From positions 1 through 27,438 of IMG/VR virus record IMGVR_UViG_3300046167_000360: a stretch of DNA of 27,438 nt. One strand, 5' to 3'. This DNA comes from a virus. The number at the start of each line of letters is the position of its first letter. Position 1 is the first letter of the stretch. Below the pieces are notes generated by a model that saw only the letters and a program-made list of their open reading frames with translations, did no database searches and was not told where the DNA came from. A program made the translations under genes and the position numbers. Positions 5,432 to 23,776 of the stretch are shown in pieces.

Positions 5432-7887
5432 TGACTATTACTGTATCTGTCACTAAAGATGTCACAGACCTTTCGGTTACTGACACTGAAACAAGCCTAA
5501 CTATTACTCCTAGCACGATTGAGCTAGGCGTAGTTAATGTTGCATTTAGTCAGGCTAGTTCAGCAGATGCAATTAGTTCAGATGCTACTGGTTACATTAC
5601 AGCGACTACAGTGCAAGGCGCATTAGATGAAATAGGTGCTGACCCACAATTTACTACTACCCTAAAAAATAAGTTAGATGATATAGAAGAGGAAGCTAAC
5701 AAACTTACTGCAGGTAGTAATGTAAATATCTCTGAGGGTGCTATTAACGCTGATGTATTAGGTGCATTACAAGCCGGTCAAAACATATCTATATCAGAAA
5801 CAGGTGAAATATCTGCAAGCGCAGTAAGCCTGACTGATGTTTACACTGCGACTAACGAAGATGAGCATTTAGACTTAGACCCTACACCAAATCAGGGTGA
5901 TGTTGTTATTCGTACTGACGAAAACAAGACCTATATTCACAATGGCGGCACATCAAACACAATGGCTGACTACACAGAGTTGGCAACAACTGGTGGCGTA
6001 AATTCAATTAATGGTGCAACAGGCGTTGTTTCTTTTGGCAAATCTAATCTAAGTGATTATGCGGCTAATGAGTTTATAGATTGGACTGTAAGTCAGGCGC
6101 AAGACATTCACGCTGGCAACTACACAAATACTACATATAGTGCTGGCTCAAATATAACCATAAATGAAAATAATCAAATAAGCTCTACTGGTGGCGGCAC
6201 AACTAACACTGCTGGCGATGGCATTAACATTGACGATGGTGCGATTAGCCTTAATACAGATTATTTATATGACACTATTAAATTTTCTTTTACAGGAGCA
6301 AATGCAGACAGTGGGGTATATGTAAGAACTGCACCAGATATATATAACCCCTCAGGAATAGATTTTCATGGATTATATGTTTATCTCGATGACCCAAGAG
6401 AAGATACAGATGTAAAATTATTAGCTGGATTTACTGTAGATGAATTTTTTGTAAGTGGTCGAGTTAATGTTAATGAGGCACTTAGGATAGATAATGAAAC
6501 CGCATTGATTACTACTCCGCAAAATAGCTCAGACTATTCAGCCACAACTAAAATAAAACTAGGCGATGTCGTTTTTTGTAAAGATAGAAGTTTAAATGAC
6601 AACAGCAAAAATATAGCTAATACAAAGTATGTTGATGCGGCTGTTGCAGACCTAGAGCAACACGTTGAGCCTTTACCCACTTTCACAGATACTAGATATG
6701 GTGGTTATTTATACTACAATCAAAATGATGCATTAGAGTGGAGAAAGCCTAACATCAATGTTTATGCAACTACACCAGTTGCAGATAATGAAGTAGATTT
6801 TTATGTAGCTGATTCACATATGCAGTTTCAAAGTTTTGGTGATTTAGGCGTACCTTTAACAATACAGGGCGGCACTGGTGTAACAGTAACGCAAACTGGC
6901 GGTAACGGATGTACGATTTCTGCAAACCCTGATGGCTTGCCAGATCAGACAGAAGCAGTTGACAACTACGTTCTGACTAGTGAATACAATGCTTCAGCTG
7001 GTGAAGGCACTGCTGTATGGACTGAATTAACGACAGCCGTATTACCTGACCAAACAGCCGCTAATAATAAATATTTAAAAAGCGTTAATGGAACAGCAAC
7101 TTGGGAAGGGGTTGATGCATTCCCTGACCAAACAGATAACTCTGGTAAGTTTCTAACTACAAATGGAACTTTAACAAGTTGGGCAGAAGTAGATGCCTTA
7201 CCTGCGCGAACCGCAGAAACAGATGGTCAGTTTTTAGCAAGTGATGGCGATGGAAATTCATATTGGGCAGAAACACAAACTAATATTCCTACGCAGTCTA
7301 GCCATACTGGTAAGTTTTTAACAACAGATGGCAATAGTCTAAGCTGGTCTACAATTAATACAGCAGGACAAACTGGTAATATAACATTTAGCTCTAGCAC
7401 TATAAGTTCATCTGACACTGATACTGTAACCATTGGCGATAAGTTATTATGTAATGACACTATATCTGCCGAAGATATTAGCCTCAACAGCGCAGGTACT
7501 CCGAGCGTTATTAGCACATCTAGCTACAATATTACTGCACCAGATGGCGTATATTTCAATGGCTGTGCCGCGCCAGTTAGACAGTTTTTTGTAGAAATAC
7601 CCAAGTATGGAAGTGATAACGACATATTGTATATTCAAAATGGAATTACAGTCCGATGGCGCACTGATGGTTCAAGTGAGCATTATGTATCTATAGCTTG
7701 CTTTAATGCAGGTTATAATAATAATAATGCTTTTGTTGAATGCAGTCTTGTGCAAACATATAGCCAAAGCGACCCAGAAATAAGTTTTTATACTAGAGCC
7801 GATGACGAATTTGCATCAACTTTTAAAACTTTTTTTAGCGATAGATTTTTTGAAGGTCGTTTGATGGTTAAAATTTATGAGTTATAA
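5431..7887 (+). CDS. Large tail fibre protein with LPDQT repeats
   Basis: This 818-residue protein is rich in Thr, Ser, Asn and Gly. Residues 50-90 carry the stem phrases TGYITATTVQGALDEI and TTTLKNKLDDIEEEAN, typical of fibre N-terminal shafts. Residues 95-290 hold several NITI/INADGAI-type beta repeats. Residues 503-644 hold five degenerate repeats beginning LPDQT or similar. Residues 645-818 form a beta-rich tip that is probably the receptor-binding part. It is likely a homotrimeric fibre. It overlaps the protease gene downstream by 11 bases, so fibre and protease are made from one message. The receptor cannot be read from the sequence. Confidence 0.75.
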   Translation: MTITVSVTKDVTDLSVTDTETSLTITPSTIELGVVNVAFSQASSADAISSDATGYITATTVQGALDEIGADPQFTTTLKNKLDDIEEEANKLTAGSNVNISEGAINADVLGALQAGQNISISETGEISASAVSLTDVYTATNEDEHLDLDPTPNQGDVVIRTDENKTYIHNGGTSNTMADYTELATTGGVNSINGATGVVSFGKSNLSDYAANEFIDWTVSQAQDIHAGNYTNTTYSAGSNITINENNQISSTGGGTTNTAGDGINIDDGAISLNTDYLYDTIKFSFTGANADSGVYVRTAPDIYNPSGIDFHGLYVYLDDPREDTDVKLLAGFTVDEFFVSGRVNVNEALRIDNETALITTPQNSSDYSATTKIKLGDVVFCKDRSLNDNSKNIANTKYVDAAVADLEQHVEPLPTFTDTRYGGYLYYNQNDALEWRKPNINVYATTPVADNEVDFYVADSHMQFQSFGDLGVPLTIQGGTGVTVTQTGGNGCTISANPDGLPDQTEAVDNYVLTSEYNASAGEGTAVWTELTTAVLPDQTAANNKYLKSVNGTATWEGVDAFPDQTDNSGKFLTTNGTLTSWAEVDALPARTAETDGQFLASDGDGNSYWAETQTNIPTQSSHTGKFLTTDGNSLSWSTINTAGQTGNITFSSSTISSSDTDTVTIGDKLLCNDTISAEDISLNSAGTPSVISTSSYNITAPDGVYFNGCAAPVRQFFVEIPKYGSDNDILYIQNGITVRWRTDGSSEHYVSIACFNAGYNNNNAFVECSLVQTYSQSDPEISFYTRADDEFASTFKTFFSDRFFEGRLMVKIYEL
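6937..7362 (+). repeat. Five degenerate 26-35-residue fibre repeats
   Basis: Five tandem units encode residues 503-644 of the large fibre. They start LPDQT, LPDQT, FPDQT, LPART and IPTQS, and are 35, 26, 26, 29 and 26 residues long. The shared pattern is P-x-Q-T, about five variable residues, then KFLTTNG or a variant, then a Trp. Unit-length variation points to shaft growth by duplication. Confidence 0.75.
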
Positions 7888-12383: not shown

Positions 12384-13096
12384 TGTATCAATACCACAAA
12401 GACAGGCCAACAACCCACCTGTATCACGATATAGTCAAAGGAAATATGTGGGATGCTAGGCCACTAAACATCTTTGGTTTTAACAGAACAATAGGCACAG
12501 CATTTGAAACAATCTGGGATGATGGCGGGAACTATACATTCCCTACATCAGCGACAGCAATGGATATTGTTTCTAGTTCTACTAGCGATACGATGCAGGT
12601 TAAGGTTAGCGGATTAGATGCTAACTACAACGAGGTCAGTGAAACACTTACTCTAAATGGTACAACGAGCGTAAGTGGTACAACGGCATTCCTGAGAATA
12701 AACAGCGCAATCATACTGACTGGCTCGAATGTAGGAAATATTACAATCAGCAGTGGCGGACTAACCTATGCTTATATAGGTGCTACTTTAGGAACAACAC
12801 AGTCTAGCGTTTACACAGTGCCAGCAGGATACAGTTTATATTTGACTCGTATTGATGTATGCTCAGGTACTAACAATGGGCAAAAATATTTGACGTTCCG
12901 CAATGTCGTTACTACTAGTGCAGGTCGGACTTTACGAGTAGCCGAAGCGACATTCTCAACAAGTCAGGTTAGCTTTGATAGGCAAGTGCCATTCAAGATA
13001 GGCGAGAAATCAGACTTTCACTTTGAAGCTAAAAGCAGTTCTAGTGAAAATGAAGTCAGTATTTTTATCGAAGCTATTTTAGTTAAAGATGATTAG
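12383..13096 (+). CDS. Beta-rich virion structural protein
   Basis: The 237-residue protein begins YQYHKDRPTTHLYHDIVKG and continues as an almost purely beta, Thr/Ser-rich chain. The phrase VYTVPAGYSLYLTRIDVCSG near 142-161 is a recurring motif of small beta-sandwich phage structural proteins. I see no export signal and no catalytic motif. Its place between holin and endolysin is unusual for a fibre. It could be a decoration or head-fibre protein. The ATG is coupled to the holin stop. Confidence 0.55.
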   Translation: MYQYHKDRPTTHLYHDIVKGNMWDARPLNIFGFNRTIGTAFETIWDDGGNYTFPTSATAMDIVSSSTSDTMQVKVSGLDANYNEVSETLTLNGTTSVSGTTAFLRINSAIILTGSNVGNITISSGGLTYAYIGATLGTTQSSVYTVPAGYSLYLTRIDVCSGTNNGQKYLTFRNVVTTSAGRTLRVAEATFSTSQVSFDRQVPFKIGEKSDFHFEAKSSSSENEVSIFIEAILVKDD

Positions 13097-19927: not shown

Positions 19928-20090
19928 TAAAGAAGAATGGGAAAGATTACGCGACCAATACCCACCACTAGAGATCGAGTTTGACAAGGAAGAACGCACA
20001 GCGTTTGATCGATGGGTTGAGGGAATGGGATATGATGGTATTATACAAATAACGGGGAAAGACAATGACAAAGACAAAACAAGCAGTTAA
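19920..20090 (+). CDS. Small charged hypothetical protein
   Basis: I choose ATG at 19920, which has GAGGG six bases upstream, over the in-frame ATG at 19905, which would put that site inside the gene. The product has 56 residues, very charged and soluble: SNKEEWERLRDQYPPLEIEF, then GMGYDGIIQITGKDNDKDK. It overlaps both neighbours. No family is recognised. Confidence 0.55.
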   Translation: MSNKEEWERLRDQYPPLEIEFDKEERTAFDRWVEGMGYDGIIQITGKDNDKDKTSS

Positions 20091-20253
20091 AGAGGTAAAC
20101 AGAATGGCAGATATAGCGATTTTAAAATCAAAAGTTAAAGGTTATGTATCAGATGCAGTTAAGTGGCTAGACGGCGAGTTCTACGGCCACAAGCGCGGAA
20201 AGCTGATATTTGTAGTCGCCATTGTAATCATGGCGTTAGTACAAGTTTCATAG
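20065..20253 (+). CDS. Small C-terminally anchored membrane protein
   Basis: ATG at 20065 follows GGGGAAAG and gives 62 residues. A second in-frame ATG at 20104, with AGAGG upstream, would give 49. Both contain a basic amphipathic region (ILKSKVKGYVSDAVKWLDG) and a terminal hydrophobic span (KLIFVVAIVIMALVQVS). A tail-anchored inner-membrane peptide is likely. It is the last gene before the packaging-side non-coding region. Confidence 0.55.
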   Translation: MTKTKQAVKEVNRMADIAILKSKVKGYVSDAVKWLDGEFYGHKRGKLIFVVAIVIMALVQVS

Positions 20254-20254
20254 T

Positions 20255-20318
20255 GTGAAACCCTAGAGTAGCAAGGCACCCTCCTGCCTGATTAGCCAGC
20301 TTGGTTCACTGGTGCTAC
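20255..20318 (+). ncRNA. Candidate three-way-junction RNA (or packaging-site DNA structure)
   Basis: A closing stem GTAGCA (20268-20273) pairs with TGCTAC (20313-20318). Directly inside it lie hairpin 1, AGGCA-CCCTCC-TGCCT (20274-20289), a six-base linker, and hairpin 2, CCAG-N9-CTGG (20296-20312). GGTTCA in the second loop can also pair with TGAAaCC at 20256-20262, giving a pseudoknot. No reading frame crosses it. Loop 1 resembles the anti-Shine-Dalgarno sequence. It lies between the last small early gene and terminase, so it could be an RNA or part of a cos/pac site. Confidence 0.4.
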
Positions 20319-20388
20319 GAAACGAACCATTACCTACAAGCATAACCAACATAATCAAATAACAGTAGTAGCCCCCTGAAACACTCTC

Positions 20389-20394
20389 TATAAT
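20389..20394 (+). promoter_or_regulatory. Possible -10 element before the 33-residue gene
   Basis: TATAAT at 20389-20394 is a consensus -10, 25 bases before the small gene at 20420. No acceptable -35 lies 16-18 bases upstream. The rest of 20319-20419 shows nothing further that I can support. Confidence 0.3.
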
Positions 20395-20419
20395 CCCGCC
20401 TTAACCACCGAGGCATCCA

Positions 20420-20521
20420 ATGAAAACCATCCTAATATTCGCAATTATTGCGCTAACTCTTATCGCCATTGATGATCTAGCAGGCAGAAAAACACCATCC
20501 AGAGAGCAACAAGAAAACTAA
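20420..20521 (+). CDS. Tiny hydrophobic peptide
   Basis: A 33-residue frame, MKTILIFAIIALTLIAIDDL and then a charged tail ending REQQEN, has CGAGG before its ATG. The N-terminal 17 residues are a membrane span or uncleaved signal. It would insert in the inner membrane. The nearby -10 and ribosome-binding site make it more likely than chance. Its function is unknown. Confidence 0.5.
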   Translation: MKTILIFAIIALTLIAIDDLAGRKTPSREQQEN

Positions 20522-20550
20522 TTGCTTGACTGTCAAACTTACGTTATGAT
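20522..20550 (+). promoter_or_regulatory. Promoter before the packaging operon
   Basis: TTGCTT (20522-20527) and TATGAT (20545-20550) are 17 bases apart. TTGACT at 20526 overlaps the -35. TTACGTTATGATT inside it resembles the 18960 promoter region. The next gene starts 41 bases further on. Confidence 0.5.
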
Positions 20551-20590
20551 TCTAAGTCATAGAAACTAATGCCAATGGCAAGGTACAGCT

Positions 20591-20842
20591 ATGAACTTAG
20601 GTTTAAGTATGAGAGTATCAGAATGTGAGGAGAACGGTTGGTTCGATCTGTTGTCTAAGCTAGACGAGATAACACAGAGCCTAATCGACAATCCAAGCGC
20701 AGGGCATCAAATCAAAACAGCACTAGTATTCTGGAAAGATGCAGTAGACTGTCGTGCTAAAGGTTTACCCCCTGAAGAAGATGATATAATAATCAAAAAT
20801 CCTATTATGAATGTCAGAGAGGCATTCGGAGCAGATATGTAA
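20591..20842 (+). CDS. Hypothetical protein preceding terminase
   Basis: The 83-residue acidic protein has AAGG about eight bases before its ATG. It is helical in the middle (WFDLLSKLDEITQSLIDNPS) and ends in an acidic region with NPIMNVREAFGADM. Its stop is directly followed by the TerS ATG, so the two are coupled. Such genes at the head of packaging operons are common and mostly unassigned. Confidence 0.6.
   Translation: MNLGLSMRVSECEENGWFDLLSKLDEITQSLIDNPSAGHQIKTALVFWKDAVDCRAKGLPPEEDDIIIKNPIMNVREAFGADM
20782..20790 (+). promoter_or_regulatory. Extended -10 element before terS
   Basis: TGATATAAT lies inside the end of the preceding gene, 52 bases before the terS start, and matches the extended -10 at 5046 in all nine bases. 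TTTACC at 20764 is 15 bases upstream. Being within a coding region, it may be chance (GAT ATA ATA codons). Confidence 0.3.
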
Positions 20843-21208
20843 ATGGGAAGACCCAAATGGATACCTGATGCAGAGATATGCGCTAGAGCTTCAGAAATGG
20901 CTTCTAGGGGATTAACTGTAGCTCAGATAGCTGATTGTCTAGGGGTAGCTGAGTCTACGTTATACAAGAAGCAAGATGAATACGTAGAGTTTATGGAGTC
21001 TATAAAAAGGGGTAGAAGTAAAGGAATGGATACAATCACCAATGCGTTGTTTGAGAAAGCAAAGGCAGGTGACAATACATCTATGATCTTTTACCTTAAG
21101 ACAAGAGACAGAGAGAACTGGGGCGAGCAATACACAGAACCAGTCAAAGAGATACCACCTATCAATATAACTGTTCACCCTGATGCAATTAACAAAGCCT
21201 CAGAGTGA
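20843..21208 (+). CDS. terS: Terminase small subunit
   Basis: The 121-residue protein begins MGRPKWIPDAEICARASEMA. An N-terminal helix-turn-helix follows at about 22-45 (GLTVAQIADCLGVAESTLYK). The middle is helical, with RGRSKGMDTITNALFEKAKA, and NWGEQYTEPVK comes near the end. The HTH plus an oligomerisation helix just before TerL is the standard TerS plan. It recognises the phage packaging site and hands DNA to TerL. It overlaps terL by 26 bases. Confidence 0.8.
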   Translation: MGRPKWIPDAEICARASEMASRGLTVAQIADCLGVAESTLYKKQDEYVEFMESIKRGRSKGMDTITNALFEKAKAGDNTSMIFYLKTRDRENWGEQYTEPVKEIPPINITVHPDAINKASE

Positions 21209-22394
21209 GATATTCTGCTCACCCTCTAGGTTCAGAGCGGTAGTAGCAGGTAGACGATTCGGCAAGACGTTTCTCTCAACAGGAGAGATTCTAAGAGCCG
21301 CTATCGGGGGTGCTAATAGAAACTGCTGGTATGTAGCTCCCACATATGGGGCGAGTAAGGAAATTGCGTGGGATATGCTTATACAAACTATCCCAGAAGA
21401 ATACATAGCCAAGACTAATGAGACAGCGTTAACCATTAAGTTAATTAACGGATCAACGATTGCGTTAAAGGGTGCAGAGAAGCCTAACAACTTACGTGGT
21501 AGAGCCTTAGACTTTGTAGTGCTAGATGAGTTTGCAGATATGCGACCAGAGGCATGGTATGAAGTTCTAAGACCCTCTCTATCGGATAGGCAAGGTCATG
21601 CGCTGTTTATCGGCACACCTAAAGGCAGAAACCATTTCTACGATCTATGGGCTAGTGGCTTAGATGGCGCGGATGGATGGGATAGCTTTCAGTACACAAC
21701 CTTACAGGGCGGCAACGTACCACAGCATGAAATAGACCAAGCTAGGAACGATTTAGACGAGCGTACTTTTAACCAAGAATATTGCGCCGAATTTGTTACT
21801 TACAGCGGTTTGATATATTATGCCTTTAGTAGGGAACTATCCGTTGTCAATGTAGACGATAATGGTGGTACACTACACATTGGTATGGACTTTAACATTG
21901 ATCCTATGAGTGCTGTTGTATGCTTACGGCATGGGCAAGACTTACAGGTTATTGATGAACTAGTTCTATATGGATCAAATACAGATGAGGTTGTTGCTGA
22001 GATAAAGGATCGTTATCCTAATCGCAGTATAATTATCTACCCTGATCCAGCATCAAGACAGCGCAAGACTAGTGCTGGTGGTCGGACTGATTTGTCGATC
22101 TTACAAAACGCAGGATTTAGCGTTAAGGCGAAGAAAGCTCACCCGTTGATCAGGGATAGAATCAATGCGGTTAATAGTCGTTTGCTATCAGGTGATGGCG
22201 AGCGGCATTTGTTTGTTAGCCCCAAGTGCAAGCAAACCATTAAGAGTTTAGAGAGACAGACTTACAAAGAGGGTACGAGTATTCCAAACAAAGATGGCAC
22301 TGATCACATGAATGATGCGTTAGGCTATCTGGTTGAATACCTGTTCCCAATAAGAACCGAATATAATACACCGCAACCGACTAGGTGGACTTGA
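21183..22394 (+). CDS. terL: Terminase large subunit
   Basis: The 403-residue protein has both terminase activities. The ATPase half shows Walker A AGRRFGKT at 22-29, Walker B FVVLDE at 111-116 and the coupling motif GTPKG at 144-148. The RNase H-like nuclease half has D236 in GMDFNIDP, D288 in IIYPDP, and D374 and D378 in DHMNDAL. It packages and cuts the genome at the portal. ATG at 21183 has no clear ribosome-binding site, so translation probably depends on coupling to terS. Length is at the short end for TerL but all motifs are present. Confidence 0.92.
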   Translation: MQLTKPQSEIFCSPSRFRAVVAGRRFGKTFLSTGEILRAAIGGANRNCWYVAPTYGASKEIAWDMLIQTIPEEYIAKTNETALTIKLINGSTIALKGAEKPNNLRGRALDFVVLDEFADMRPEAWYEVLRPSLSDRQGHALFIGTPKGRNHFYDLWASGLDGADGWDSFQYTTLQGGNVPQHEIDQARNDLDERTFNQEYCAEFVTYSGLIYYAFSRELSVVNVDDNGGTLHIGMDFNIDPMSAVVCLRHGQDLQVIDELVLYGSNTDEVVAEIKDRYPNRSIIIYPDPASRQRKTSAGGRTDLSILQNAGFSVKAKKAHPLIRDRINAVNSRLLSGDGERHLFVSPKCKQTIKSLERQTYKEGTSIPNKDGTDHMNDALGYLVEYLFPIRTEYNTPQPTRWT

Positions 22395-23776
22395 TGAGAG
22401 ATATTGAATATACACACCCCGACTATGATGCTTATAAAGCCAGATGGGAGTTCTATCTGCGAAGCTATATGGGGGGCGATGATTATAAAGGTGGTAGCTA
22501 TCTAACAAGCTATGTATCTGAGGGCAAGGAAGAATACGCAAGACGTATAGACCTAACCCCAATGGACAATCACTGTAAGAACATTGTTCACATCTATTCC
22601 AGTTTTCTATGGCGTGTACCGCCAACAAGAGCCTTTAACAGCCTTTCTAACAACGCCGCACTACAGCCATTTATAAAAGATGCTGACCTTGATGGTCGTA
22701 GCTTTGATGCGTTTATGCGACAGGCGCAGGTTTGGTCTAGTGTATATGGTCACGTATGGTTAATGCTTGATAAGCCTCAGTCTAATGCCAGTACAAGAGC
22801 AGAAGAACTAGAGCAAGAGATTCGCCCTTATATGACGTTGATAACACCAGAGAACGTGTTTGACTGGAAGTATGAGCGCACCCCCAGTGGTAGATTCAAG
22901 CTGACCTATCTTAAGGTTAGAGAATCTATTGACCGAGTTACAGATACAGAGACACAGATATATTGGCGCGTATGGCGTGAAGATAGAATTGAATCATGGC
23001 GCACACTAAATGATACTGATGAACTACTAGAGACTATTGATAACGCACTAGGAAAAATACCTGCTGTATTCCTACCTGCTAATCGCTCTGTATTGAGAGG
23101 CATTGGCATATCAGATATATCAGATGTATCGCATATGCAACGAGCTATCTATCAGGAACTATCAGAAGTAGAGCAGTTAATTAGAATCAGTAACCACCCA
23201 ACACTGGTTAAGACTTACGAGACAGATGCTAGTGCAGGAGCAGGTGCAGTTATTAACCTACCTGATGATATGGATGGCGCATTAAAGCCTTACCAGATGC
23301 AACCTAGTGGTGCTAACCTTGACGCTGTAAGAGCATCTATTGTGGATAAGGTAGAAGCTATAAACCGTATGTCACATATGGGTGCAGTTCGAGGCACAGA
23401 AGCTATGACCCAATCAGGCGTAGCAATGCAGACAGAGTTCCAGATGCTTAACGCCAAGCTATCTGAGAAAGCCGATCTATTAGAGTTAGCAGAAGAGCAA
23501 ATCTTTGACCTGTTCTGCCGGTGGCAACAAGTAACTAATGACGTAGAGATATTCTACCCTGATGCGTTTGATCTACGTGATTACGACAAAGAGTTATTGT
23601 TCCTACAACAGATGAGAGCAACAGGCGTACAGTCAGAAACCTTATCGCAGGAAATTGATAAGAAGATTGCTGACTTATTACTTGATGATGAACACTTAGT
23701 TAAAGCCCACACAGAGATTGAGTCTGGCGCACAGCGCATTGGCAACTTTGCAGATGAGATAACTAATGGCGGCTGA
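22394..23776 (+). CDS. Portal protein
   Basis: ATG at 22394 overlaps the terL stop (TGATGA) and has AGGTGG five bases upstream. An in-frame GTG at 22385 would use that site as codons. The 460-residue protein starts RDIEYTHPDYDAYKARWEFY and includes TPMDNHCKNIVHIYSSFLWR near 56-75, ISNHPTL, and a long helical region around 330-380 (INRMSHMGAVRGTEAMTQSG). This fits the SPP1-type or DUF4055-type portals, which form the dodecameric DNA channel. Gene order TerL-portal-head morphogenesis confirms it. Confidence 0.85.
   Translation: MRDIEYTHPDYDAYKARWEFYLRSYMGGDDYKGGSYLTSYVSEGKEEYARRIDLTPMDNHCKNIVHIYSSFLWRVPPTRAFNSLSNNAALQPFIKDADLDGRSFDAFMRQAQVWSSVYGHVWLMLDKPQSNASTRAEELEQEIRPYMTLITPENVFDWKYERTPSGRFKLTYLKVRESIDRVTDTETQIYWRVWREDRIESWRTLNDTDELLETIDNALGKIPAVFLPANRSVLRGIGISDISDVSHMQRAIYQELSEVEQLIRISNHPTLVKTYETDASAGAGAVINLPDDMDGALKPYQMQPSGANLDAVRASIVDKVEAINRMSHMGAVRGTEAMTQSGVAMQTEFQMLNAKLSEKADLLELAEEQIFDLFCRWQQVTNDVEIFYPDAFDLRDYDKELLFLQQMRATGVQSETLSQEIDKKIADLLLDDEHLVKAHTEIESGAQRIGNFADEITNGG

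Follow-up and report, generated by a model that had tools for sequence, protein, structure and literature searches.

What occupies the noncoding DNA that precedes the terminase genes in the virus record IMGVR_UViG_3300046167_000360? An earlier note on this whole 27,438-nt (27.4-kb) IMG/VR record, hereafter the window, proposed that positions 20255–20318 encode a compact three-way junction with pseudoknot potential and an anti-Shine–Dalgarno loop. Comparison with related loci places a 62-nt element on the plus strand at 20268–20329 (cmsearch 20265–20330, 76.3 bits), and the comparative evidence for its structure is overwhelming: judged from sequence, it is near certain that the encoded RNA would form a three-way junction of helices P1, P2, and P3 that carries a pseudoknot. 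We tentatively propose that this RNA acts as a roadblock to RNA decay.

Covariation and Architecture of the Element

A search with the terminase small subunit (terS) yielded 32 related loci, and alignment of the stretches upstream of terS resolved three divergent groups (A, which is window-like, B, and C). All three retain the element in differing surroundings, and changes in the helices are compensated across them. With 31 diverse elements in a plain MAFFT alignment, 90.0% of the cells of P1, P2, P3, and the pseudoknot are paired, with a covariation score of 0.456 compared with 0.173 ± 0.014 for shuffles and 0.08–0.12 for slid partners. The pseudoknot (20302–20307 with 20324–20329) is paired in 94.6% of cells and shows both-side changes in four of its six pairs, its covariants including TGGTTC/GAACCA, TGGTAC/GTACCA, TAGCCC/GGGCTA, TAGTCC/GGACTA, and TGATCC/GGATCA. 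When 37 non-redundant elements were aligned by a covariance model without the pseudoknot and all columns were scanned against all, the top six pairs, each 100% paired, comprised one from P1, three from the pseudoknot, and two from P3; the pseudoknot was recovered although it is absent from the aligning model. In all fetched loci, a descriptor search identified 60 unique elements that have the consensus loop; the reversed sequence gave 0.

The minimum-energy fold of 20255–20318 is exactly P1/P2/P3, in agreement with the junction in noncoding sequence described in the earlier note. Of the two computational checks suggested there, comparison with shuffled controls detected nothing unusual in the folding energy (z = 0.40 on the plus strand and −0.08 on the minus strand), so that the single sequence alone would not have revealed the element; covariation among homologues, with its compensated stem changes, was decisive for the structure.

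P1 is formed by GTAGC (20268–20272) and GCTAC (20314–20318), with changes on both sides in four of five pairs among homologues; the closing stem first described as 6 bp is real, and evolution supports a length of 5 bp. P2 pairs AGGCA (20274–20278) with TGCCT (20285–20289) and is followed by the junction strand J2/3, GATTA (20290–20294), whose last base before P3 is mostly A. P3, in which GCCAG (20295–20299) pairs with CTGGT (20309–20313), is 100% paired in the 31 sequences, with swaps between C-G and A-U and between G-U and C-G. The two internal hairpins, initially given as 5 and 4 bp, therefore both hold, with P3 measuring 5 bp when its G-U pair is included. Most sequences have G-U as this terminal pair of P3 and others have C-G, as befits an RNA of the plus strand. 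Further lineages (L195, L202, L203, L207, L210, L214, and L196; such labels denote individual viral loci or contigs fetched for comparison) have G-C at the third P3 pair, and pattern searches for U-A at the third pair or G-C at the second found no matches.

The P3 loop, CTTGGTTCA (20300–20308), is 9 nt long in every aligned element and contributes the 5′ strand of the pseudoknot, TGGTTC (20302–20307). Its partner, GAACCA (20324–20329), lies beyond the interval originally noted and is separated from P1 by the linker GAAAC (20319–20323), which measures 5 nt in 54 of 56 distinct elements. A pseudoknot was thus correctly anticipated, with a different partner: the 5′ tail to which the loop had been assigned, GTGAAACC, occurs only in the window and the 95%-identical L004, and elsewhere the 5′ flank is unconserved. 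The invariant unpaired positions among homologues are a U and an A of the P3 loop and the A of the linker.

In contrast to these rigid ring-forming parts, P2 is free to vary: its helix ranges from about 3 bp upward with variable sequence, and neither the sequence nor the length of its loop (CCCTCC, 20279–20284) is conserved, with alternatives such as TTACTTTG and TTTATTT. The proposal that this loop is an anti-Shine–Dalgarno regulator finds no support, because the loop is variable, if often pyrimidine-rich, and because operon-terminal copies (L135, L073, and L052) have no gene to regulate. What persists of the suggested RNA regulator is strong support for a functional phage RNA that is structured and contains a pseudoknot. 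In terS-linked lineages, including A1/A2, P2 loops are strikingly pyrimidine-rich (CCCTCC, TACTCC, TCCTCT, and TCCCTT), and in other lineages they are U-rich.

The 34-kb contig L088 carries two divergent copies (5916–5971 and 12898–12963), one with a long P2 of about 10 bp and the other with two hairpins replacing P2; a tRNA-3′-end-like sequence lies immediately 5′ of the first. Both score weakly with the model (23 bits), yet P3 and the pseudoknot are kept while P2 is altered.

Distribution among Phages

A core search pattern composed of a degenerate P3, its loop, and an AACG linker was found in at least 119 viral contig stretches, compared with 0 for a control pattern in which the P3 pairing was broken. 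The same core pattern had two matches in 84,980 bacterial and archaeal species genomes (257 Gb), neither of which we judge to be true; both are apparent chance matches that lack a pseudoknot partner and reach at most 10.8 bits with the model. At the level of the core pattern, the element is restricted to phages.

Rfam 15 contained no match above the gathering threshold, only chance-level ones, and running the 4227 Rfam 15 models at E ≤ 10 on a 221-nt region returned no credible match by sequence or structure. A search for tRNA and tmRNA genes found none. No element was present in the cultured relatives HTVC202P/111P/026P/112P, HTVC023P/027P, 023Pt_psg01, and DSL-LC04/06, and blastn of several versions of the element against 50,697 phage records, a low-powered search for short divergent elements, gave chance matches only. 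In the literature we found no report of a phage exonuclease-resistant RNA (xrRNA) or of this motif; the "Ocean-VI" candidate listed by Weinberg (2010) is without an Rfam model.

The newly found loci are mostly not linked to terminase genes. They belong to phages encoding PolA, thymidylate synthase, and MazG (L051), primase and helicase (L038), an HNH protein and PolA (L073), a RecE-like nuclease and integrase (L046), an SNF2-type helicase (L082), or a different terminase (L045). The genes adjoining the element are many and unrelated, and encode MazG-like proteins, small membrane proteins, or nothing recognizable. Given that it is common to unrelated phages and absent from Rfam and, by the core pattern, from host genomes, the element is, on these sequence comparisons, a new and uncatalogued RNA family in its own right, common to several unrelated groups of uncultured, mostly marine phages.

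Tandem Arrays and Genomic Placement

Many lineages carry tandem copies, two or three in a row. L073 has three (6985–7052, 7054–7124, and 7132–7200), and two-copy arrays occur in L038, L052, L210, L214, L196, and L026/L072/L127. Much of group B also has tandem arrays, in which P1 of the second copy lies directly against the pseudoknot strand of the first. Directly after the tandem pairs of L210 (1909–2053) and L214 (4277–4421) comes a long, imperfect inverted repeat (CGTGC...GCACG) that may be another structured element.

The first copy mostly starts about −6 to +14 nt relative to the upstream stop codon, and the distance from the element to the next gene ranges from about 19 to >500 nt. An intrinsic terminator lies 3′ of the element in L135 (5 nt), L088 (18 nt), L021 (47 nt), and L045 (60 nt); the gene that comes next in L135, L073, and L052 is convergent. 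Elsewhere the element lies 18–26 nt 5′ of a start codon (L051, twice, L114, L082, L195, and L038), including positions in the 5′ untranslated region (UTR) in L051, L082, and L195; in L038, two copies stand at the head of a transcription unit that follows a terminator. Given these varied placements, the element is neither bound to one gene nor limited to leaders. We also considered and rejected a stop-codon read-through pseudoknot: in the window, the frame after the TAG at 20251–20253 closes after five codons, and the spacing from stop codon to P1 varies among lineages.

A Possible Roadblock to RNA Decay

Based on its resemblance to viral xrRNAs, our preferred reading, to which we assign a probability of roughly 40%, is that the element is a phage RNA roadblock to exonucleolytic decay that would work like an xrRNA, without our filing it as a member of an xrRNA family. 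As a 62-nt cis-acting RNA within phage transcripts, it would pair its P3 loop with the six bases 3′ of P1, a pairing supported by covariation, and so close what may be a rigid ring-like knot. After degrading the upstream message, an exonuclease of the host, with the 5′→3′ enzyme RNase J as the most plausible candidate, would stop at the knot. The RNA 3′ of the knot would survive, either as the mRNA of the next gene or, where an intrinsic terminator follows at once, as a short stable noncoding RNA; an array of copies would stop the enzyme more completely. RNase J is encoded in 47 of 58 Alphaproteobacteria genomes sampled, so the enzyme could be present in the host.

The tandem copies, the rigid ring parts with a free P2, the placement after stop codons and before terminators, and the indifference to neighbors fit a general decay roadblock. 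The many unrelated neighboring genes argue for a general role in RNA stability rather than the sensing of one metabolite, and in L135, L088, L021, and L045 the order of element and intrinsic terminator resembles the layout that yields subgenomic flaviviral RNA (sfRNA). A broader and slightly less probable proposal is that DNA phages convergently evolved tandem, exonuclease-resistant RNAs of flaviviral xrRNA topology, which may shape mRNA decay or leave stable sfRNA-like fragments that occupy the 5′→3′ exonuclease of the host.

Several points weigh against the roadblock. Transcription, the exonuclease stop, and the direction of the block are themselves inferred, and a 5′→3′ exonuclease is presumed to be present in the host. 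The 5′ flank is unconserved, and no covarying flank–junction pair indicative of a PK1-like contact, the second pseudoknot of flaviviral xrRNAs, was detected among the 37 non-redundant elements, although a 2-bp contact could escape such a scan. The element has no sequence relation to any family in Rfam 15. For the 5′-UTR copies of L051, L082, and L195, other cis-regulation is equally possible.

Among the alternatives, we consider it unlikely that the element constitutes a phage small RNA acting in trans, or its 3′ end, in which the knot would serve as a stable or protein-binding body and the terminator as the 3′ end, with host or phage targets. Such an RNA would fit the terminators that directly follow the element (L135, L088, L021, and L045) and the convergent next genes (L135, L073, and L052); however, no terminator intervenes between the element and the nearby start codon in L051, L114, L082, L195, and L038, and there is no conserved single-stranded seed, the unpaired P2 loop being variable.

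Two further explanations are more doubtful, to an equal degree. The knot might instead block 3′→5′ exonucleases (PNPase and RNase R) and thereby protect the upstream gene, as suggested by the tight placement of the first copy behind the upstream stop codon in most lineages combined with the variable distance to the next gene. Such a stabilizer would be redundant where a terminator hairpin follows within 5–18 nt (L135 and L088), and the element of L038 opens a new transcription unit after a terminator. Alternatively, the invariant unpaired U and A of the P3 loop and A of the linker, together with the copies just 5′ of Shine–Dalgarno sequences in L051, L082, L195, and L038, could mark a cis-regulatory binding site for control of the neighboring gene, either a riboswitch-like aptamer or an operator bound by a phage or host protein. 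Yet neighboring genes differ among lineages, the operon-terminal copies of L135 and L073 have no gene to control, and terS-linked phages have a conserved −10-like box, in one group also a terminator, before the next gene. A metabolite riboswitch would be expected in the 5′ UTR of genes of one pathway; here, the neighbors are mixed and some copies are operon-terminal.

Processive antitermination of the put type, in which the RNA lets RNA polymerase resist terminators, is quite improbable. The restriction to phages, the location 5′ of terminators in some lineages, and the early/late boundary in the window recommend it, but the next genes of L135 and L073 are convergent, so that read-through would be antisense, and the topology is unlike that of the two-hairpin put RNAs. 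A put-type element would precede terminators that need read-through; in L135, the terminator is followed by convergent genes. Finally, hairpins arising by chance or an element acting at the DNA level (protein-binding inverted repeats or a packaging site), which the ordinary single-sequence energy and the adjoining terminase genes of the window might suggest, are effectively refuted because the three helices and the pseudoknot covary, with G-U pairs on the plus strand, the broken-P3 control gave 0 matches against at least 119, and most other lineages are not beside terminase genes.

Gene Neighborhood in the Window

The genes of the window lie mostly on the plus strand, and the element sits at the early/late boundary, 5′ of terS (20843–21208), the terminase large subunit (21183–22394), and the portal gene (22385–23776). 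The large terminase, whose nearest cultured relatives include Pelagibacter phages, shares 54% identity with its counterpart in Pelagibacter phage HTVC202P. The element occupies a 337-nt gap between a 62-codon open reading frame (ORF) at 20065–20253 and an ORF at 20591–20842 that directly precedes terS. The product of the 62-codon ORF adjoining the element on its 5′ side has a C-terminal membrane helix and no PHROG match; a membrane ORF of similar size is found at the same place in many terS-linked phages.

Further conserved features lie 3′ of the element. A promoter-like pair at 20362–20394, composed of an [AG]CATT[AT]-like box (ACAGTA in the window), 21 nt, and TANAAT (20389–20394), has identical spacing in groups A, B, and C; because this spacing is non-standard, it suggests an activator-dependent late promoter. 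Between the element and this promoter, group B phages have an extra segment of about 110 nt that contains a strong intrinsic terminator (L021, about 2438–2471); the segment is not found in groups A and C. An unlisted 33-codon ORF at 20420–20521 (MKTILIFAIIALTLIAIDDLAGR...), kept in all three terS-linked groups, encodes a membrane helix followed by a D-D/Q/E-L/F motif, and its Shine–Dalgarno sequence lies within the 3′ arm of a conserved hairpin, GCCT..AGGC (20398–20414). A second conserved promoter-like stretch (20520–20590), with a short hairpin beside the Shine–Dalgarno sequence of ORF 20591–20842, is present in all three groups with differing sequence.

Comparison with Known RNAs

Marine and cyanophage RNAs that are pseudoknotted or otherwise structured include Downstream-peptide (glutamine-II), manA, wcaG, PhotoRC-II, and Ocean-V of the Weinberg 2010 set, whose topology differs from that of the phage element; their Rfam models gave no match at E ≤ 10 on the 221-nt region. 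Like these motifs, the element is followed by a tiny conserved ORF in terS-linked phages. The put RNA of phage HK022 is likewise a phage-only, cis-acting structured RNA of ~65 nt; it is promoter-proximal and composed of two stem-loops, whereas our element is pseudoknotted and often operon-terminal. The xrRNAs of plant viruses and pegiviruses are viral RNA roadblocks that depend on a loop-to-3′ pseudoknot, and in broad outline they have a junction architecture different from that of the phage element.

The closest likeness is to the class-1 xrRNA of mosquito-borne flaviviruses such as Zika-type viruses. Both are P1/P2/P3 three-way junctions, both have a P3-loop pseudoknot (PK2, L3-S4) with a segment a few nucleotides 3′ of P1, both are commonly, although not universally, tandem, and both lie in noncoding stretches after a stop codon. 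In the flaviviral RNA, about two 5′ bases additionally pair with the junction, forming PK1 and threading the 5′ end, and 5′→3′ exoribonucleases halt immediately 5′ of P1. The phage element differs in coming from DNA phages, in having no sequence relation, no detected PK1 signal, and an unconserved 5′ flank, and in that its exonuclease stop is proposed here. A GTCAGGCC-like resemblance of group B to flaviviral sequence is a coincidence, its TCA being the pseudoknot strand of the preceding tandem copy.

If the element does block exonucleases, bacterial and animal viruses would have converged on one mechanical answer to RNA decay, and direct tests of how phages control the 5′→3′ decay of their hosts would become possible. 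Without its loop-to-3′ pseudoknot, one xrRNA loses resistance altogether; without PK1, its resistance is only weakened (PMC13161572). The flaviviral class-1 xrRNA holds exonucleases mechanically and blocks bacterial RNase J1 in vitro, an enzyme that MacFadden et al. (PMC5760640) remark is never naturally met by xrRNAs; the phage element might be an exception.
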